Translations under genes and position numbers: made by a program | Part shown: piece by piece, positions 16,893 through 58,186 of the stretch | Numbering within the stretch: position 1 is the first letter of the stretch | Layout of the letters: each line of letters starts with the position of its first letter | The notes under the pieces: model-generated | Databases searched by the model: none | Seen by the model: only the letters and a program-made list of their open reading frames with translations | What the model was told of the DNA's origin: nothing | NCBI GenBank assembly: GCA_015200345.1 | Contig: CP054187.1 | Span: forward strand, 2,960,470-3,024,469 | Reading direction: 5' to 3' | Origin: Planctomycetia bacterium | GTDB taxonomy: Bacteria; Planctomycetota; Phycisphaerae; UBA1845; UTPLA1 | Length of the DNA: 64,000 bases

Positions 16893-18584
16893 ATGAACGG
16901 CACGGCGACTCATTCACGAATCCTCGTCTTGAGCCGCCCCGGTTCTCCCTCTTCCGACCGCGTTTCGCAGATTTTTCCCGAAGCCGAAGTTCGAACCGTC
17001 GCCTCGTTTGATGAAGCGGTGGCGGCGCTGCGCGACGGGCAATACGACCTGGTCATCAGCGACCAGCGCGATTTTCTGGCGTTGGAGCGTGCCTCGATCA
17101 ATCACCAGGCGACGCTGCTTCTAGAGACGATCGGGCAGGGCGTTTGCATCGTGGGGCTGGATGGTCGGCACGTCTGGTCGAATCCCAAGATGCAGAGCTA
17201 CCCGGCGGATTTGCAGGAGAAAGTCTGCGAGGTTTGCGCCAAGACGTTCGGCGGTGCCGTGGAGGCGGATCCCGCGCAACCCTCGTATCACCGCGCGCGG
17301 CGCTTCAGTCTGACGGGCGGCCAGGATCAGTACTTCGATCTGACGGTGACCCCGGTCATGAATCCGCGCGGCGAGGTGTCGCAGGTGGCGGCGGTGGTGT
17401 GGGACGTGACGCACAGTCGCCGTTTGCAGAAGAAGATCGACGCGATCGACCTGGCGGGCCGGGAGTTGGCGCGGATCGACGCGGAAACGTATGCGGGGAT
17501 GAACGTCGAGCAGCGCATCGCGCTGCTGGAAGAGAAGATGCACGGCTACCTGAAGGAGCTGTTGAACTTCGACAAGTTCGCCGTGTTGCTGATCGACAAG
17601 AAGACGAACAAGCTGGACTTCGTGTTTCACCACGGGCTGTCGCAGAAGAGCCGCGATTACGTGATCTATGCGGAGCCGACGGGCAACGGCACGAGCGGCT
17701 ACGTGGCGGCGACCGGACAAAGCTACATTTGTAAGGATACTTCGTTGGATCCCCTGTACCTCCAGGGGCTGGACACGACGGGCAGTTCGCTGACCGTGCC
17801 GCTGCGGCTGCGCGACGCGGTGATCGGCGTGCTGGACATCGAGTCGGACCAAGTCAACGCCTTCAACGAGGACGACAAGCAGTTCGCGGAGATTCTGGCC
17901 CGCTACGTGGCGATCGCCCTGAACACGCTGGACCTGCTGATCATCGAGCGGTACGAGTTCGGCGGGCAACTGGTCGACGACGTGTGCAGCGAAGTGGCCG
18001 GGCCGGTGAACGACATCATTGCCGAATCGCAGGGGATCATGGACGAGTACATCGGCAACGATTCGCTCCGCCGGCGGATCGCCGCGATCTGCGAAAACGC
18101 CAAGGAAATCAGCAAGCGCATCAAGGCCGCTGGCACGACCCGCGCCGGCATCCTCGGCCGTCACAACGACGCCACGCCGGTCGATCCGCTGATCAACGGC
18201 AAGCGCATCCTGGTCGCCGACGACGATCAGACGATCCGCGAGACCATCGCCGAGCTGCTTGCCCGCCGCGGCGGCAGGATTGACATGGCCACCGACGGCA
18301 GCGACGCCATCGCGCGCATCAAGCAAAACGGCTATGATCTGGTGCTGTCCGACATCCGCATGCCGCATAAGAACGGGTACGAGGTTTTTTCCGCGGCGCG
18401 CGACAAGCGGGCCGATTGCCCCGTGATTCTCATGACCGGCTTCGGCTACGACCCGAATCACTCGATTGTCCGCGCGCGGCCCGAGGGATTGAGCGCCGTG
18501 CTGTTCAAACCGTTCATGGTCGATCAACTGGTCGAGGCCGTGCGCAAAGCGCTGATGCCTGCGGGTACCGGAACGCAGCAGTAG
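16893..18584 (+). CDS. Multi-domain regulator: receiver-like, PAS, GAF and C-terminal receiver domains
   Basis: 563 residues from the ATG at 16893 (a TTG nine bases upstream is an alternative). A degenerate receiver-like segment comes first (RILVLSRPG... YDLVISDQRD, about residues 8-55). A PAS-like domain (about 70-180, ending VVWDVTHSRRL) and a GAF domain (about 205-350, with GTSGYVAATGQSYICKD) follow. A typical CheY-type receiver (about 430-555) has VADDDQ, the phospho-acceptor Asp in LSDIRMP, and a late Lys in FKPF. There is no histidine-kinase HATPase domain and no DNA-binding or output domain, so it is a signal integrator acting through partners. Confidence 0.83.
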   Translation: MNGTATHSRILVLSRPGSPSSDRVSQIFPEAEVRTVASFDEAVAALRDGQYDLVISDQRDFLALERASINHQATLLLETIGQGVCIVGLDGRHVWSNPKMQSYPADLQEKVCEVCAKTFGGAVEADPAQPSYHRARRFSLTGGQDQYFDLTVTPVMNPRGEVSQVAAVVWDVTHSRRLQKKIDAIDLAGRELARIDAETYAGMNVEQRIALLEEKMHGYLKELLNFDKFAVLLIDKKTNKLDFVFHHGLSQKSRDYVIYAEPTGNGTSGYVAATGQSYICKDTSLDPLYLQGLDTTGSSLTVPLRLRDAVIGVLDIESDQVNAFNEDDKQFAEILARYVAIALNTLDLLIIERYEFGGQLVDDVCSEVAGPVNDIIAESQGIMDEYIGNDSLRRRIAAICENAKEISKRIKAAGTTRAGILGRHNDATPVDPLINGKRILVADDDQTIRETIAELLARRGGRIDMATDGSDAIARIKQNGYDLVLSDIRMPHKNGYEVFSAARDKRADCPVILMTGFGYDPNHSIVRARPEGLSAVLFKPFMVDQLVEAVRKALMPAGTGTQQ

Positions 18585-51271: not shown

Positions 51272-51949
51272 TCATGCAAACAGAAGATAGACACCCACAA
51301 TCAGAATCAGCAAGCCTGCGAACCTGCGGAGCACGTCCGCGCCACGATTCCAACCGCGAGAGTCTGCCAGTCGTTGAACCAATCCAATCGAGGTTCCGCC
51401 AGCCAGCACAAGTCCACAATGGCCCAGACTGTATGCAACCAGCAGGATTGCACCAAAGGCCGCACCCTTGAGCGGCATGATCGAGAGCAACGCGAGCAAG
51501 ACCGGGCCGGCGCACGGCATCGACACGAGGCCGAAGAGCAGCCCCAACAGCAGCGCGCCAATGAAGCCCTTCTGTTTCGGTTGCATTCCAGCCGGCGCCG
51601 GGATGTGGAATCGCAGCAAGCCCACCAGATGCAAACCCATGAGCAGACACACGCCGGCGGCGACGTACGTCCACCAACTTGCCTTCAACACCGAGCTGGC
51701 GGCCCACGTCGCCAGGAACAGGACCGCGAACATCATGGTCAGACCAATGCTGAACGTCAGTGAGAGCAGGAACGATCGGCCGATGTTGTGATTCTCCTGT
51801 CCCGCAACGTATCCGATCATCAGCGGCACCATCGCAAGAACACAGGGATTCGCAGCGGTTAAGAGTCCGCCGGCAAACGCGGCCGCGGGCGCCAACCAGG
51901 GGTTGTTCTGCACGATATTCGCCAGGTTTTCGGAAAGCTGTTCGAGCAT
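51272..51949 (-). CDS. ccdA: CcdA-type thiol-disulfide interchange membrane protein
   Basis: 225 residues with about six membrane helices. The paired redox cysteines sit in the family motifs ANPCVLAMVPL (Cys36) and SMPCAGPVLLALL (Cys146). CcdA carries electrons from cytoplasmic thioredoxin to partners outside the membrane. Its start overlaps the stop of the anchored thioredoxin gene (TAATG), which is the obvious partner. It is the last gene of the ArsR-led operon. Confidence 0.9.
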   Translation of the reverse strand: MLEQLSENLANIVQNNPWLAPAAAFAGGLLTAANPCVLAMVPLMIGYVAGQENHNIGRSFLLSLTFSIGLTMMFAVLFLATWAASSVLKASWWTYVAAGVCLLMGLHLVGLLRFHIPAPAGMQPKQKGFIGALLLGLLFGLVSMPCAGPVLLALLSIMPLKGAAFGAILLVAYSLGHCGLVLAGGTSIGLVQRLADSRGWNRGADVLRRFAGLLILIVGVYLLFA

Positions 51950-52377
51950 TACACGGCTCCCAGCTCCTTCAACTTGGTGATGATCTCATCCTTGGGCAGG
52001 AACCCCTCATGTCGCCAGACCTCCTTGCCTTCTCGGTCAAAGAAAATCTGCGTCTGGATGATGCGGATGTCGTAGGGCTCGCCGGCCTTCGGGTTCTTCC
52101 AGACGTCGATGAACTCGACGGTGGCCTTGCCTGCGTATTCGGTTTTCAATTCCGCGAGAATCGGCGCCATCTTCTTGCAAGGAATGCACTTGTCCGCGCC
52201 GAGATCGACCATGCGCGGTAATGCGCGCGCCGATGACACTCGTGGAGACTCCAACGCCGCTCCGCGTGTTTTCTGCGGCTCCGGCGATTCGCGAGATTCG
52301 CGCACCGTGGCCACGACAATGACCAAGGCGACCACACCGCCCGTCACCAGCAAACTCGTCAGCAGATTACGATTCAT
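51949..52377 (-). CDS. Membrane-anchored periplasmic thioredoxin-like protein
   Basis: 142 residues. An N-terminal anchor (residues 5-24) and a linker of about 30 residues precede a thioredoxin fold with CIPC (Cys64, Cys67) and the cis-Pro-equivalent region IIQTQIFF. A usual thioredoxin has a cis-Pro there (TPT), and here it reads Thr-Gln, so substrate handling may differ. It is translationally coupled to ccdA and lies 15 bp after the TM0996-type gene. It should receive electrons from CcdA. Confidence 0.85.
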   Translation of the reverse strand: MNRNLLTSLLVTGGVVALVIVVATVRESRESPEPQKTRGAALESPRVSSARALPRMVDLGADKCIPCKKMAPILAELKTEYAGKATVEFIDVWKNPKAGEPYDIRIIQTQIFFDREGKEVWRHEGFLPKDEIITKLKELGAV

Positions 52378-52392
52378 CGGTGCTCCTCCCGG

Positions 52393-52641
52393 TCAGCGCT
52401 GCGCCATGACGCTAGTGAGCAGCCGCGTGATCTCTGCCTCGGGGGGGACCCTACCCGCCGCGACCACCTTGCCATCGATGGCCAGGGCCGGCGTAAACAT
52501 CACACCGCGTTTCATGAACTCGTTGATGTCCTTGATGTGCTCGATTTCGTAGTCGAGCCCGAGCTTGTCGGCGGCCGATTTGGTAGCCGCTTCGAGCATG
52601 TTGCACTTGGCACAACCCGTTCCCAGAATTTCGATTTTCAT
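52393..52641 (-). CDS. TM0996-type small redox-active disulfide protein
   Basis: 82 residues. It begins with a beta strand and GTGCAKC (Cys10, Cys13), then the short glutaredoxin-like fold with the cis-Pro motif MFTPALAIDG and a final helix. The family is repeatedly found beside DUF318/ArsP-type permeases and ArsR repressors, as here. Its role is unknown; it may reduce a thiol or oxyanion bound by the permease. It has no signal, so it is cytoplasmic. The permease gene ends 9 bp upstream. Confidence 0.87.
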   Translation of the reverse strand: MKIEILGTGCAKCNMLEAATKSAADKLGLDYEIEHIKDINEFMKRGVMFTPALAIDGKVVAAGRVPPEAEITRLLTSVMAQR

Positions 52642-52650
52642 GATGCGCTC

Positions 52651-53958
52651 CTATCTGAAATGGCCGAAGAGCAATCCCGTGATCGTCGCCATGACGACAA
52701 TCAGCAGACTGAATGCGGCGGTTTTCTTCACGCCCATGACCTTGATGAGCACCAGCATGTTCGGCAGCGACAGCGCCGGCCCTGCGAGCAACAGTGCCAG
52801 CGCCGGGCCGCGGGCCATGCCGTGTTCCATCAGCGCTTGCGTGATGGGCACTTCCGTCAGCGTCGCGAAATAGAAGAGCGCTCCAACCAGCGACGCCACG
52901 AAATTGGCTCGCAGGCTGCTGTCACCGACCAGTTGACCGATTTGCTTGTCGGGCAGGAGCGCGGAAATGAAGCCGACCACAAAGACGCCGCCGAACAGCA
53001 AGGGAATGAGCAGCTTGGTGAAATCCCACGTGTTGTGCATCCACGTGCCGAATTCCTCGCGGTCCACCCAGCGCCAACTCATCACGACGACTGCCAGACC
53101 CATCAAGCCCGCGATGTACCAGCGGAGGTGATACACATCCATCACCCAGCTCCGGGCTTCTTGGATGGCGACAATTTCGCTCTTGGGTAGTGTCAGCCGC
53201 TCGCCGGCGCGAACGCCGCCAACCGACTCCTGGACTTGAATCATGACCTCATCGTGCATCTCCTGAAGCACGACGCCGCGGATCGCTGTGCCGTTGGTCC
53301 GCTTGATGATCGCATCGCCGGGGTTGAACCAGTCAGAGAAGACGAGGAAGGCGATCATGCCTCCCAGCAACATTGCGTTTTGCCACAGCCTGCGGCGCGG
53401 TGCGGGCGGATCGGGCATCAGCATCGCCGCTTCCGCCTTCACTCGCTCCTCACGGCCGAAGATCCCGGCCATTCCGAGGCCGACCAAAAAGGCAAATCCA
53501 ATCGCACCCAGGGCTCGCCACAGACCGATGTCGAAACCGAGCACGCGGGCCGTAAGGAAGATCGCCAGAATGTTGATCGCCGGACCTGAGTAGAGAAACG
53601 CGGAGGCCGGACCGAGCCCCGCGCCGAGCTTGTAGATGCCGGCGAACATCGGCAACACGCTGCACGAGCAGACGGCCAGCACCGTGCCGGCCACCGAGGC
53701 CACCGCGTAGGCCGCAAGCTTATTGGATTTTGGACCGAGATAACGCATCACGGACGCCTGCGATAAGAACGTCATGATCCCGCCGGCGATGAACAGTGCC
53801 GGTAGGACACAGGCCAAGACGTGGTTTCGCGCGTACCACTGCAGCAGCTTGAACGCCTCCAGGATGGCGGCGCTGATCTTGGGATTGGCCAGCGGCAGGA
53901 AATAGGCGACCAGAAAGACGGTCACGAACGCGGCAAGAATCTTCAGTTGTTTGGACAT
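52651..53958 (-). CDS. ArsP/DUF318-family permease
   Basis: 435 residues, about ten membrane segments in two halves separated by a soluble loop (about 200-270) that contains an unusual beta-rich insert (GTAIRGVVLQEMHDEVMIQVQ). The family core is AVCSCSVLPMFAGIYKLG followed by FLYSGPAINILAI and, in the second half, TLTEVPITQALMEHGM. ArsP members export methylated arsenite, and other members are uncharacterised. The CSCS motif is a candidate soft-metal or redox site. It has an SD (AAGGA) and its own operator-like repeat upstream (54004-54032). Confidence 0.85.
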   Translation of the reverse strand: MSKQLKILAAFVTVFLVAYFLPLANPKISAAILEAFKLLQWYARNHVLACVLPALFIAGGIMTFLSQASVMRYLGPKSNKLAAYAVASVAGTVLAVCSCSVLPMFAGIYKLGAGLGPASAFLYSGPAINILAIFLTARVLGFDIGLWRALGAIGFAFLVGLGMAGIFGREERVKAEAAMLMPDPPAPRRRLWQNAMLLGGMIAFLVFSDWFNPGDAIIKRTNGTAIRGVVLQEMHDEVMIQVQESVGGVRAGERLTLPKSEIVAIQEARSWVMDVYHLRWYIAGLMGLAVVVMSWRWVDREEFGTWMHNTWDFTKLLIPLLFGGVFVVGFISALLPDKQIGQLVGDSSLRANFVASLVGALFYFATLTEVPITQALMEHGMARGPALALLLAGPALSLPNMLVLIKVMGVKKTAAFSLLIVVMATITGLLFGHFR

Positions 53959-54003
53959 TGCGGTCTCTCATCCTTCATAAGGAACCCACCCGCAACATTC
54001 ATG

Positions 54004-54032
54004 CCATAATGGCAATTTCGCCATGAATATGG
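54004..54032. promoter_or_regulatory. ArsR-type operator before the permease gene
   Basis: The segment holds four half-sites in the order CCAT-a-ATGG-caatttcg-CCAT-gaat-ATGG. The central ATGGC-AATTTC-GCCAT (54009-54024) matches the site before the ArsR gene (ATGG-CAATTATA-CCAT). It lies between the repressor and permease genes, so the repressor can control the permease operon separately. Confidence 0.6.
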
Positions 54033-54056
54033 AAAAAAAAGAGGACTCTTGTTCGA

Positions 54057-54386
54057 TCATCGCAGCACCGCCTGCTGAGCCTTCAAATTCTCGCTCAACA
54101 CCGTTTCCAGGCACTTCCAGAAGCCGCTCAGGCAACAGACCTTGACACGGTAATACGCCATGACGCCTTCCTTGCGGTCTTCCACCAGGCCCGCCTGCTT
54201 GAGAATGGCAAGGTGCTTGGAAACCGTCGATTGATCCGCCCCGACAAGTTCCGTGAGGTCGCATACGCAAATCTCGCGGCCCTCCAGTGCTTCAAGGATC
54301 ATGAGTCGGCTCGGATGGGCGAGCGCCTTGGCGATCCGGGCACGGGCTTCATACCGCTGACGAGAATGTCGGGGCTTGGTAATCAT
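54057..54386 (-). CDS. ArsR-family metalloregulatory repressor
   Basis: 109 residues of the winged-helix fold with the recognition helix DQSTVSKHLAILKQAGLV. It has the classic ICVCDL metal motif (Cys40, Cys42), as in E. coli ArsR-type As(III) sites. It also has three late cysteines (Cys84, Cys85, Cys92) spaced much like those I recall from the Acidithiobacillus ArsR site. Both sites in one protein is uncommon. It likely binds the ATGG-N8-CCAT palindromes at its own promoter and before the permease gene, releasing on As(III), Sb(III) or another soft metal. Confidence 0.88.
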   Translation of the reverse strand: MITKPRHSRQRYEARARIAKALAHPSRLMILEALEGREICVCDLTELVGADQSTVSKHLAILKQAGLVEDRKEGVMAYYRVKVCCLSGFWKCLETVLSENLKAQQAVLR

Positions 54387-54391
54387 GGCTC

Positions 54392-54426
54392 TATGGCAAT
54401 TATACCATATAGACGAGCTTTGTCAA
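54392..54426 (-). promoter_or_regulatory. Promoter and operator of the ArsR-family gene
   Basis: On the minus strand TTGACA (54421-54426) and TATAAT (54399-54404) are both perfect, with a 16-nt spacer. The palindrome TATGG-CAATTATA-CCATA (54392-54409) covers the -10. A start site near 54391 leaves only about five bases before the ATG at 54386, so the mRNA would be nearly leaderless. Autorepression is inferred from the overlap. Confidence 0.8.
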
Positions 54427-54609
54427 GTCGCTCACATCGCTATTTCTGACTTTCCAACTCCCACTAACGGCTAGCCCCGCTCTTGGGTCACCCGCGGCAT
54501 TGGCTGCAGGGCAGAGTCGCCGGCCTACGTGGACGTATCACCAGAAGGACAACAGTTCTTGGCGGGCCAGCGGCCAGCCTCCGGCTTCGAAAACTGCGGC
54601 ACCATTGGT

Positions 54610-55166
54610 TTACTCTTGTGGCCGATATCGCATCTCAGGTTCAGGTTGGACGCCAAGAGCATCCATGACGCGGTTGCTGTAGTTGAAATACCCAATCGTC
54701 TGTACGGCGTCGAGAATGGTCTCATCGTCGAAACCAGCGGCCCGTACCTCTCGACATCGCCGCGTCGCAAGCACATTGGCTGCGTTGTCATCTTAACCGC
54801 GAAGTCGAGTAACGCCCTTGTCGCAGGTTCGAGATCGACCCGATTATGGTCGGCCTGAATTGCCTGAACTTTCGTTTCGTCCTTGATCTCCGACCGGAGA
54901 TCGCCTTCATGGCTTTCAATTCAGTAATGGCAGCCGTTGGTGCGCGAGACGACCGTCGCTATCAAGACTCGCTGGAGCCGTGAAAGCTTGCCTGGGCTTT
55001 CCATTAGATGTCGATAGAACTTTCTCCCTAGTGTCATCGTTTCTGGCCGCAGGCTTTGTATCCGTACAAGATTGATAACGCGTCCGAACTTGGCTTTGCT
55101 CTCGTCGTAGATGCTCGCGAGCAGCCCCGTTGCGTCTTCGTCTGCGATGGTTCGAATCCAACTCAT
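54610..55166 (-). pseudogene. AhpD/CMD-family peroxidase-like gene with UGA at the redox Cys codon and a one-base frameshift (candidate selenoprotein or pseudogene)
   Basis: A strong SD (GGGAGG, 7 nt) precedes the ATG at 55166. Codons 1-81 run to NGCHY, then TGA at 54921-54923. The same frame continues with IESHEGDLRSEIKDE... TRALLDFAVKMT... GDVERY, all AhpD/carboxymuconolactone-decarboxylase-like. Near 54734-54746 one base appears missing (TACGGGCCGCT where TACCGGGCCGCT would keep frame), after which GFDDETILDAVQTIGYFNYSNRVMDALGV runs to TAA at 54610-54612. Restored, it is about 185 residues, the family norm. The UGA replaces the second Cys of CHYC-x3-H, so selenocysteine is a serious possibility; the frameshift argues for decay or a sequencing error. 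Confidence 0.75.
54885..54902 (-). promoter_or_regulatory. Candidate bacterial SECIS hairpin
   Basis: On the minus strand GATCTCC and GGAGATC form a perfect 7-bp stem closed by a GGTC loop. The loop begins 25 nt after the UGA at 54921-54923, inside the 16-37 nt range I recall for bacterial SECIS elements. The apical GGUC sequence is the one SelB contacts in E. coli fdhF. The same bases encode Asp-Leu-Arg-Ser-Glu-Ile, which the family conserves, so coincidence is possible. Confidence 0.5.
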
Positions 55167-55310
55167 TGATCTGCCTCCCGAGAATGCCTGTTTTTTGTAT
55201 TACAACGAATTATTCAGCTCGCGCTGTCCCACCGTCTCGCAATGCGTTTGAGGGCAGTTGCGCACATGTAATCATTGTGGCGCGCGTCCGACTGTCATTG
55301 AAGATATAAC

Positions 55311-56414
55311 TTAGAAGATGAGCGCCGCGGCGAGGCCGACCACCAGGAAGAACCCAAACAGGATCACCGCCAGCTTTCGCGAGACCTCGCGCCACAAATA
55401 GATGCTCGGAATAATGCTGTACGTCCCAAGTGTCATAGCGAAGAGCATGACGTAGCCGGACGGTACGCCCTGATGTTGAAGCTGGGCCGCAAACATGACA
55501 TCCAGTGCAATCGGAACTGGCATGAACACAGAGATTAGGCTGACCAGTGCAGCGCGGAGCGGGGTCACCTCGGACAGCAGCGTGGTCCAGGGAACGAGAG
55601 TCAAGACCACCGAGGACACGATGCTCGCAAGTAGCATCAGCGTGATCGTCGGCTTGACCAGCATCCACACATGCTTGCCATAGTCTGCCGCCAGCTCCTT
55701 GAACACGAGCCAGATTGGTTCCGTGCAATCCGCCGTTGGTGGAGGCACGAGCCCACAGGCCGCCCCTTCAACGTCGGGAGTAAAGGCGTTCATCGGCTTG
55801 TCTCTTTCAAGGCGGGCGATTACGGCGGGAACGAACACGACGATGACCAGCAACAGGATGGCGTATTTCGTGACGCTCATCGCGAGCGGAAAGGCCATGA
55901 ACGTCATCATCAACACGACCGGGTTGAAATTCGGAGAACTGAAGAGGAAGCCGAGGGCCACCTCGACGCGGCCATGCCCGCGAGTGACGCCGCACGCGAC
56001 GGGCACCGAGCAATTTGCACACACCCCGGCTGGCACGCCAACCAGCGCGCCTTTCAGGGAGTTTAGATAAAGGTTCTTTCCGATTTTCAGCGGGTAGTAT
56101 CGCAGCACCGTGTGCAGCAGCGCACCGAACAACACGCCGAAGGTCATGCCGATCTTCATGGCGTCCAGCCAGTTTACCGTACCGAAGAGAATTCGCTTCC
56201 ACGCCGGTGCGGTCACGGCGACTTGCAATACCTCGTGGCTGTAGGCCATGCTCGGCACAGCCTGCCCGACATGCTTTGATTTGCTTATCAATTGCGGATA
56301 ACGCGACGCGAACCAGAACACGCAAAGCAGGACGACGGCAGCGGAGACCAGAATCAGCGGGCGGTAGTAGCACGCGAGGCGGCGAGAGTGAAACGGGATT
56401 GAAAGAGTGCTCAT
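55311..56414 (-). CDS. Second ArsP/DUF318-like permease
   Basis: 367 residues from the ATG at 56414, chosen for GGAG 6-7 nt upstream (the ATG at 56426 is embedded in that SD region). About nine membrane segments are seen. The family core reads GVCANCSVPVACGVTRGHGRVEVALGFLFSSPNFNPVVL, with a Cys-x-x-Cys in place of the CSCS of the other permease. Later comes MPVPIALDVMFAAQL. A cytoplasmic or outer loop (about 215-245) has two further cysteines. It follows the anti-sigma gene by about 95 bp on the same strand and may be a direct target of that sigma factor. Confidence 0.8.
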   Translation of the reverse strand: MSTLSIPFHSRRLACYYRPLILVSAAVVLLCVFWFASRYPQLISKSKHVGQAVPSMAYSHEVLQVAVTAPAWKRILFGTVNWLDAMKIGMTFGVLFGALLHTVLRYYPLKIGKNLYLNSLKGALVGVPAGVCANCSVPVACGVTRGHGRVEVALGFLFSSPNFNPVVLMMTFMAFPLAMSVTKYAILLLVIVVFVPAVIARLERDKPMNAFTPDVEGAACGLVPPPTADCTEPIWLVFKELAADYGKHVWMLVKPTITLMLLASIVSSVVLTLVPWTTLLSEVTPLRAALVSLISVFMPVPIALDVMFAAQLQHQGVPSGYVMLFAMTLGTYSIIPSIYLWREVSRKLAVILFGFFLVVGLAAALIF

Positions 56415-56508
56415 GGAAATCTCCATTCTTTGGGACCATTGATGCGTATCAAGGTTTCGAGAAAATACTCTGAGTCAGCCATTGTCGTCTCTGCAAACGT
56501 AAGTCGCG

Positions 56509-57294
56509 TCACTCCAGCTCGGACATGAAATGAATCAACTCGTCTTTTTCGGTACGGGACACCGCGGCATAGATCAGGTTGTTGCGCAGGCAGGCTACGA
56601 CGGAATGGCCCTTGCACCGGTCAACCCAGTATGTGCGGCCGTCATGCGATACGCGCTCCATTTTGCCGAGACTGCTTGTATCTCCAGCCAATACGACGAG
56701 ACACGCGGGATTTGCGTCCATTTCGTACGATGCAAATGCAGCAGATTGGCCGTTCAGTTTGCACTTGCGAGCACCGATCAGCTTGCAGTGGACTCCAGTC
56801 GTGGCGGGCAGTGATACTTCTAAGCCGGTCTTGCCACGCAACCACTGCGACACCTCTCCGCGATCTGCCGATGCAATCTGGACCAGCCTCCCCTCGCTGA
56901 GGAAGTGATTAAAGTCGGTAACGAGTAAATCAACCAGAGCACTCTGATGAAACGTGGCATCCGACGGATCGGACAAGTTATTGGCAAACACGCTCAGGAG
57001 AATAACGGCAGCGATACCGATCCCCAAAGACATCCAAGCCCACATGCGTCGTCGAGCTGGAATGTTCGCCGGGATGGTCATGACCGTGCGTAACAACTCA
57101 TCCAACGATGGCGATTTCCCGGAATCATGCTCCATCGCGGAAGCGAGTCGCCTTTGGACCAGCCGTTCTGTCTCCGCTTCACGCGCGCAATTGGGGCAGT
57201 GCTCCAAATGGCGTTGAACATCAATGCTGAGTGCGGCGTCCAACTCGTTGTCGAGAAACGTAAAAAGCAATTCACGCACTTCGCCACAGTTCAT
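56509..57294 (-). CDS. Membrane anti-sigma factor with zinc finger and Cys-containing outer domain (module 3)
   Basis: 261 residues; the start at 57294 overlaps the sigma stop as TAATG. The N-terminal zinc motif is Cys3, His29, Cys33, Cys36, with the same spacing as in the anti-sigma of module 1. A membrane helix spans about residues 84-107. The outer domain has five cysteines, including CKLIGARKC and the late DRCKGHSVVAC, where Cys/His could bind a metal. Loss of that domain's grip would free the sigma factor. The two paralogues suggest related signals. Confidence 0.83.
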   Translation of the reverse strand: MNCGEVRELLFTFLDNELDAALSIDVQRHLEHCPNCAREAETERLVQRRLASAMEHDSGKSPSLDELLRTVMTIPANIPARRRMWAWMSLGIGIAAVILLSVFANNLSDPSDATFHQSALVDLLVTDFNHFLSEGRLVQIASADRGEVSQWLRGKTGLEVSLPATTGVHCKLIGARKCKLNGQSAAFASYEMDANPACLVVLAGDTSSLGKMERVSHDGRTYWVDRCKGHSVVACLRNNLIYAAVSRTEKDELIHFMSELE

Positions 57295-57863
57295 TAGTGC
57301 CCTCCCCTTTCTTGGCTCTGAGTCGCCGCATAATCGGCCAGTTGCTCCCGAAGTGCTCTGCGAGCGCGTGCCATACGCGACATGACAGTACCAATGGGAC
57401 ATTCGAGAACGTCGCCGATCTCCCGGTAATTGAGGCCACCCGCCACGGAAAGTACGACGACCTCGCGATAAGGCGGCTCAAGCGTGTCAAGTGCGGCGGC
57501 CACTCTGTCGTCGAGAAACTCACGGAACTGGCTTTCGTCCATCGTTGGAAGGGGCGCGAATGGCTCGGACGAAGCGGGGCCAGCAACATCGGTCAGGTCC
57601 GTGTTGAAGAGCGGGGCGAGTCTTATTCGTCGTTGCGATGATCGATGCCATTCCGCAGCAACATTCCGCATGATCACAACAAGCCATGCACGTTGATACA
57701 CGCACGTCTGAGTTGAAGAGAAGCTTCTCCAAGCCCGCAGGAGGGTTTCCTGCATTAGGTCGTTGGAATCCGAAGGCGTTCGGACATATTGGCGCGCGAG
57801 AGTGGCGAGCCGCTCATAATGCGGTGCTACGAATGCCTCGAAGGTCGCACCCTTGGAATCCAT
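57294..57863 (-). CDS. ECF-family RNA polymerase sigma factor (module 3)
   Basis: 189 residues from the ATG at 57863 (the frame extends to 57899). Region 2: PSDSNDLMQETLLRAWRSF and QRAWLVVIMRNVAAEWHR. Region 4: PYREVVVLSVAGGLNYREIGDVLECPIGTVMSRMARARRAL. It is coupled to the anti-sigma gene by TAATG overlap. It is the most upstream gene of the minus-strand metal/redox cluster and is a candidate regulator of the permease and AhpD-like genes just downstream. Confidence 0.88.
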   Translation of the reverse strand: MDSKGATFEAFVAPHYERLATLARQYVRTPSDSNDLMQETLLRAWRSFSSTQTCVYQRAWLVVIMRNVAAEWHRSSQRRIRLAPLFNTDLTDVAGPASSEPFAPLPTMDESQFREFLDDRVAAALDTLEPPYREVVVLSVAGGLNYREIGDVLECPIGTVMSRMARARRALREQLADYAATQSQERGGH

Positions 57864-58186
57864 GATGATCAGCCGTCCGCTGAGACTGGGTCTCCTCAAT
57901 TAATGGAATGACATAACATCGCGATTTCATCCCGATTAGCAGAACAATAGTGTGTTGTGCCTTTGGGATAGTCCGCGAATCGCCGTATTGAGGGCAGTTT
58001 GAGGGCAGACCGACGGTCAAGAATTGAAAAAGTCCCACAAGTCACGTGGCTTCAGGAGATTGCGCGACCTTCGCTTCGAGTTGCGGTGAGTGTCAGGCTC
58101 TCGTGAATTGCCCATGATGAGCATTTTACGTAAATTCATTCCCAATAACGAGTTATAGTTTGCGGTTCGCAACCTTGTTGCTATAA
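57864..58186. other. Intergenic region between ECF sigma and tRNA-Ser genes
   Basis: 323 bp. The only structure noticed is a short direct repeat, TTGAGGGCAG-TTTGAGGGCAG (about 57990-58010). A related TTTGAGGGCAGTT lies at about 55247. It may be part of the sigma gene control region; nothing else is supported. Confidence 0.35.

Follow-up and report, generated by a model that had tools for sequence, protein, structure and literature searches.

An AhpD-like planctomycete gene in which an in-frame UGA very probably encodes selenocysteine, from a clade without the relay glutamate

Does a UGA codon at the active site of an AhpD-like gene specify selenocysteine, or does it mark a gene in decay? The question is raised by a gene on the minus strand of the window, the stretch of 64,000 nucleotides of planctomycete DNA analysed here, which lies entirely within a single-contig genome of 3.88 Mb (96% complete). 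An earlier note on this DNA had described a strong Shine-Dalgarno sequence, 81 codons ending in NGCHY and a UGA at the second Cys of a CxxC-x3-H motif, and all of these features were confirmed at 55179-54921. The Shine-Dalgarno-like GGGAGG (55174-55179) stands 7 bases 5' of the ATG at 55166, codons 1-81 (54924-55166) match the AhpD-like family TIGR01926 by reading frame and profile, with the first Cys of the pair at codon 79 (54930-54932), and codon 82 is the UGA (54921-54923), which homologue searches, individual loci and the Sec machinery lead us to read as selenocysteine. The same frame continues through codons 83-140 (54747-54920), where we counted 57 family codons for the approximately 55 previously noted. 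The family then leaves frame 0 at around codon 141 (54746-54741), and a further 43 family codons and a stop (54612-54610) follow in the -1 frame (54610-54741), in agreement with a frame shift placed earlier near 54740. The read-through product scored 36.8 bits against the Pfam CMD profile (PF02627; cut-off 23) and 101.7 bits against NCBIfam TIGR01926 (peroxidase-related enzyme; cut-off 81.8) over residues 2-139, and the redox columns C79 and C82 (Sec read as C), together with the second His (H86), are invariant in a 52-row alignment (A1). A single intact frame to the end of the family is absent from this copy, owing to the break at 54746-54741, and its assignment to the family rests on its two pieces and on its intact relatives.

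We searched for the read-through protein in 120 genomes, its own included (E≤1e-10). This search identified matches in 56 of the 120 genomes, in 73 match rows, of which 72 contained exactly one in-frame TGA, the last being a fragment from the gene's own genome that covers residues 1-68 only; as the list held no full copy free of stops, there was no Cys form at this threshold. When the position of the TGA was checked in 30 loci fetched from this search, the window copy among them, it fell at the equivalent of codon 82 in all 30, and the other 29 relatives gave intact read-through proteins of 177-187 amino acids, with U in CxxU and no break of frame. Two wider searches used the closest relative (L023) as the query at E≤1e-38, in sets of genomes that overlap with each other and with the set of 120. 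Matches came from 40 genomes out of 114 in the order and from 41 out of 392 in a phylum sample, and a TGA was present in all the matches listed. Cys members of the family were found at greater distance. A search of the phylum with TIGR01926 yielded a match in at least 214 of 294 genomes, with at least 19 stop-free rows above the cut-off, all 19 of which were read, and the remaining rows among the matches listed carried one TGA each, so that the putative Sec form prevails among the best TIGR01926 matches listed for the phylum. Outside these genome sets, a search of a contig collection detected one distant locus from Lentisphaeria, with a Cys codon at this place, and plasmids gave 462 matching records, all below 60% identity, of which 11 of the 12 listed were annotated as peroxidase-related enzyme and one was unannotated. 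Among viral contigs, 61 stretches fitted the single pattern searched, and none of them was a relative.

Sec machinery of planctomycetes is already in print (PMC4807772, as accessible in part), and all four genes named in the earlier note as a check, selA, selB, selC and selD, are present in this genome: selB (303.6 bits, above the cut-off) is adjoined by selA (517.5 bits), selC is a tRNA-Sec of 73.7 bits with the anticodon UCA, and selD scored 374.2 bits. The SelD of this genome (L018, G000:C1:3620511-3621431) itself has one in-frame TGA and is apparently a selenoprotein. In genomes with completeness of 90% or more and contamination of no more than 5%, the gene was present in 35 of 62 with selB versus none of 9 without it (Fisher p 0.0013). 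Over all 120 genomes the corresponding figures were 50 of 98 and 6 of 22 (p 0.036); the six genomes in which we found the gene and no selB are all 63-85% complete. In these comparisons relatives carry the same UGA, and not scattered unrelated stops, and the UGA of the window is very probably a selenocysteine codon that the gene has in common with its relatives, rather than a lesion.

The RNA 3' of the UGA can form a hairpin (54885-54902) with a 7-bp stem, GAUCUCC pairing with GGAGAUC, and a 4-nt loop, GGUC (54895-54892), that begins with GG and lies 25 nt from the UGA; the 33-nt segment has a folding energy of -11.1 kcal/mol. By computation, this hairpin falls within the constraints on bacterial SECIS elements set out in the accessible portion of PMC13188914, namely a loop of 3-9 nt, a stem of 4-16 bp, a G in the first two places of the loop, 16-37 nt between UGA and loop and a minimum free energy of at most -7.5. 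Scoring a stem as present when at least five of its six core pairs were formed, at a position chosen after inspection of the 30 order-level copies, we found it in all 30 of these Sec copies and, in what is a more independent test, in 25 of 34 other Sec copies versus 1 of 20 Cys copies. Pooled, 55 of the 64 Sec copies have the stem, compared with 1 of the 20 Cys copies (Fisher p about 4e-11, uncorrected for kinship). Over 63 aligned copies the covariation score was 0.251, compared with a mean of 0.154 in shuffled alignments and with none of 500 shuffles as high, the shuffles taking no account of relatedness, and cells with double changes numbered 40 versus 17.5 in the shuffles, two of the seven pairs supplying most of them. 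In addition, pairing fell from 84.6% to at most 53.2% when the partner strand was shifted by 1-3 columns. Other measures gave less: five pairs had changed on both sides versus 3.2 in shuffles, a weak measure of covariation that 45 of 500 shuffles reached; single-sequence z-scores over the whole 48 nt were weak (mean -0.97); and in six of the 30 order-level copies (L023, L025, L035, L040, L045 and L047) the lowest-energy fold of these 48 nt does not include the stem. Nine of the 64 Sec copies have no stem at the common place (L066, L067, L074, L081, L089, L090, L093, L112 and L114), and in these the SECIS may lie in a different register or belong to a different class.

The frame break is confined to the window copy, being seen in none of the 29 relatives among the 30 fetched loci. 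It falls on two strongly conserved residues of the family, an invariant Leu and an almost invariant Arg, and throws the last helix of the predicted fold (residues 148-170 of the L023 model) out of frame, so the copy as assembled is unable to make an intact protein. Compared with L024, the window copy shows 18, 9 and 42 changes at the three codon positions over the 81 codons before the UGA, 12, 10 and 28 over the 57 codons after it, and 8, 7 and 27 over the 43 codons past the break, when these are read in the -1 frame. The bias towards third positions was similar in comparisons with L023 and L025 and weaker with L029, the L026 row having been left out of the comparison past the break. As third-position changes persist beyond the break, the tail was coding until recently, and the break itself either arose by mutation very recently or is an error.

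Two accounts of the break deserve serious weight. In the first, to which we give about an even chance, the window copy is a selenoprotein gene that has genuinely, and very recently, become a pseudogene, in which the UGA is Sec and the break a real mutation that costs it the last helix; the restriction of the break to this one copy is in line with this, although the third-position pattern past the break leaves little time for decay. A further argument comes from the other family members of the same genome, which has two copies besides that in the window. One of these (L053, G000:C1:1184000-1203900; 1334-1528 and 17799-18140) belongs to the same clade as the window copy and is cut after codon 65, with its halves oppositely oriented, separated by 16 kb and each abutting the end of an element. 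The element has TGTCA ends, an IstB-like frame recognised by eye and a 6-bp target duplication, and reads as a putative member of the IS21-like group, while a Pfam search of the two ORFs there first taken for IS genes gave no match. Its first copy is about 2.6 kb long and its second extends beyond the fetched stretch; that the two are inverted relative to each other explains the inversion of the locus. The interruption of this second copy suggests that pressure to keep the clade may be relaxed in this genome, and a cut copy and a broken one in the same genome would fit decay. The third copy (L054, G000:C1:310104-310682) is of a different subtype with an insertion, and has an intact frame and a UGA. 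Together with L058 (G001:C1:398000-408000), L054 (G000:C1:308500-312500) represents a further Sec subtype in which the insertion follows the LRxE stretch after the UGA, and which has lost neither the relay Glu nor the SECIS stem.

In the second account, whose chances we put a little below even, the break is an error of sequencing or assembly, and the window holds an intact selenoprotein gene. The continued codon constraint past the break and the intact frames of all 29 relatives argue for this, and the quality of the assembly argues against it, since the genome is a single contig at 96% completeness and its selA, selB and selD matches are free of frame breaks. A programmed frameshift could likewise account for coding constraint on both sides of the break, but its absence from all 29 relatives, and the lack of a classical slippery heptamer at the site on inspection by eye, make this very improbable. 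Finally, a Cys-type AhpD gene that acquired its UGA by simple nonsense mutation, and so became a pseudogene with two lesions as the earlier note had considered, would need only one substitution (TGC to TGA), and the presence of another lesion might be thought to favour this reading. It is nevertheless hardly credible given a single TGA in 72 of 73 rows from 56 genomes, placed at codon 82 in 30 of 30 fetched loci, with intact frames past it in 29 relatives, a SECIS-like hairpin, and a genome equipped with all of the Sec machinery. Of the earlier idea of a doubly damaged gene, the part that concerned the UGA thus falls, the codon being a conserved Sec codon, and the part that concerned the break possibly stands, in that no intact protein can be made from the gene as assembled. 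By contrast, the reading of the UGA as part of a CxxU selenoprotein, also put forward there, is strongly supported by the Sec machinery, the conserved UGA, the SECIS and the phylogeny.

The reading that we prefer, and that we regard as highly probable, is that the gene encodes an AhpD-like CxxU selenoprotein, a redox enzyme that receives Sec by way of a SECIS element, and that this copy is newly dead or misread at codon 141 while its UGA is no lesion. Starting from the motif, the conserved UGA, the hairpin, the machinery and the predicted fold, we infer the selenocysteine in the product, and with it an activity, a substrate and a partner. The hairpin at nt 19-36 after the UGA, judged from its sequence and structure, would act as a bacterial SECIS element, and because it works as such SelB would deliver Sec-tRNA(UCA) to the UGA. 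An AlphaFold model of the relative L023, built with the 52-row alignment, is all helical with a mean pLDDT of 94.4, and its nearest solved structures are 6k40, 3c1l, 2oyo, 2prr and 2pfx (Foldseek TM 0.83-0.88 by query length, 0.88 for 6k40; VIA Z 23.3-23.7, rmsd 2.0-2.1 over 177-181 residues). Family and fold thus point to an all-helical AhpD-like thiol/selenol oxidoreductase, in which the Cys79/Sec82 pair would cycle between reduced and selenenyl-sulphide states and would reduce a peroxide or the disulphide of a partner.

The gene lies in a cluster of genes on the same (minus) strand (51272-57899) that comprises a sigma-70-type factor, a zinc-finger protein, an ArsP-like permease, the gene itself, an ArsR regulator, an ArsP permease, two thioredoxin-like proteins and a DsbD-like protein. 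We searched 8-15 kb around 13 clade copies of other genomes for these neighbours (tblastn, E≤1e-4), and none of the six proteins comprising the two ArsP-type permeases, ArsR, the two thioredoxins and the DsbD-like protein was matched there; nor did a comparison of ORFs around clade copies identify a neighbour common to the clade at large. A link to arsenic was therefore rejected as functional evidence, as these genes did not turn up beside those 13 copies. Weak matches near clade copies were seen for the zinc-finger protein and for the sigma factor of the window, in both cases at L057 and L119.

The active site of the window copy departs from the relay known from AhpD. In AhpD this comprises Glu118, Cys130, His132, Cys133 and His137, and in PA0269 Glu36, Cys48, Tyr50, Cys51 and His55, the position of Glu36 being occupied by His in 2GMY (PMC3141380, in the portion accessible). 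The corresponding positions of the window gene are residue 67, Cys79, Tyr81, Sec82 and His86, and the relay Glu, expected 12 residues before the first Cys, is replaced by Val (codon 67, 54966-54968). The earlier note had called upon a His/Glu relay to activate the second residue of the pair; its His is kept, whereas its Glu is Val67 here and is absent from the whole clade to which the window copy belongs. The clade is represented by 15 copies from 14 genomes, which encode 14 distinct proteins; Val occupies position 67 in 14 of these copies and Tyr in one. All 49 other Sec copies read have Glu there, as do 18 of the 19 Cys copies included in the tree, the remaining one having Gln. A second mark of the clade is a Glu directly after the catalytic His (codons 86-87, 54906-54911 in the window copy), found in 14 of the 15 clade copies (13 of 14 tree rows, with Lys in L030) but in none of the 49 other Sec copies and none of the 19 Cys copies.

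In a tree of 82 rows, the 14 distinct clade rows are split off from all others by a branch supported at 100/100. The tree omits L032, whose protein is identical to that of L031, and the distant L052; the window row was cut at residue 139, and the IS-cut copy was represented by its second half. Warnings of long branches (L106, L110 and L097) and of odd composition in seven Cys rows all concern sequences outside the clade. Searches with L023 agree with this boundary, as clade copies scored at least 222.7 bits, except for the half-copy (155.1), and other matches at most 181.1. Among the matches listed, neither the 120-genome search nor the L023 searches of the order (114 genomes) and of the phylum sample (392) revealed a Cys member of the Glu-less clade. 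Elsewhere in the tree, five Cys copies of family f10 of the same class (L076, L091, L095, L096 and L097) form one branch beside the Sec copies L081, L083, L089 and L090, a pattern that may represent a Sec/Cys switch.

As a single clade amounts to a single evolutionary event, the link between Sec and loss of the Glu is suggestive rather than a statistical association, and since other Sec copies keep the Glu, Sec alone does not force its loss. Selenols are mostly ionised at neutral pH, which may have made the old general base dispensable in the clade. It is conceivable, though we lean against it, that this all-Sec clade rebuilt its active site, Sec having made the old base unnecessary and the new Glu serving another step or substrate, and that the clade is now locked into selenium. 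If loss of the Glu is indeed tied to Sec, the clade is a natural experiment on the constraints that selenocysteine lifts from an enzyme. The clade may be new, no description of it having been found in the literature searched, in so far as this was accessible.

Under the standard code, the window gene would be taken for a pair of fragments or for a pseudogene, whereas its actual reading would be that of a selenoprotein gene with a SECIS-like hairpin, the sole lesion of which lies elsewhere. The family itself is already known, as the earlier note had stated: 27 AhpD-like CxxU sequences of COG2128 were reported from the Sargasso Sea in 2005 (PMC1088965), the GOS survey of 2008 gives, for AhpD-like 1, 299 Sec and 902 Cys forms (PMC2398784), and a 2026 AEM review catalogues an AhpD-like CxxU protein under TIGR01926 (PMC13188914), each as given in the accessible part of the source. 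With M. tuberculosis AhpD (1knc, 1gu9) the model has in common the catalytic hairpin with its Glu/Cys/His/Cys/His relay; the structural match (VIA Z 11.8-11.9 over 135-137 residues) is at a level that helical bundles can reach by chance, identity is 11%, and the relay Glu118 of AhpD is without counterpart in the window clade. The NF041238 AhpD-related (seleno)proteins, for which the same review, in its accessible part, records CxxU, have the AhpD-type core in common with the window product, which nevertheless falls far below their cut-off (33 versus 175 bits). Much closer are the AhpD-like protein of Deinococcus radiodurans (6k40) and 3c1l, 2oyo, 2prr and 2pfx, which have the same fold and a CxxC-x3-H site, although in the alignments 6k40, 3c1l and 2oyo carry Cys instead of Sec and, unlike the window copy, the relay Glu. 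Closest of all in kind are the AhpD-like CxxU selenoproteins of COG2128/TIGR01926, with which the window copy agrees in NCBIfam family, in Sec at the second Cys and in a SECIS-like hairpin, and from which it differs by its Glu-less clade and its frame break.
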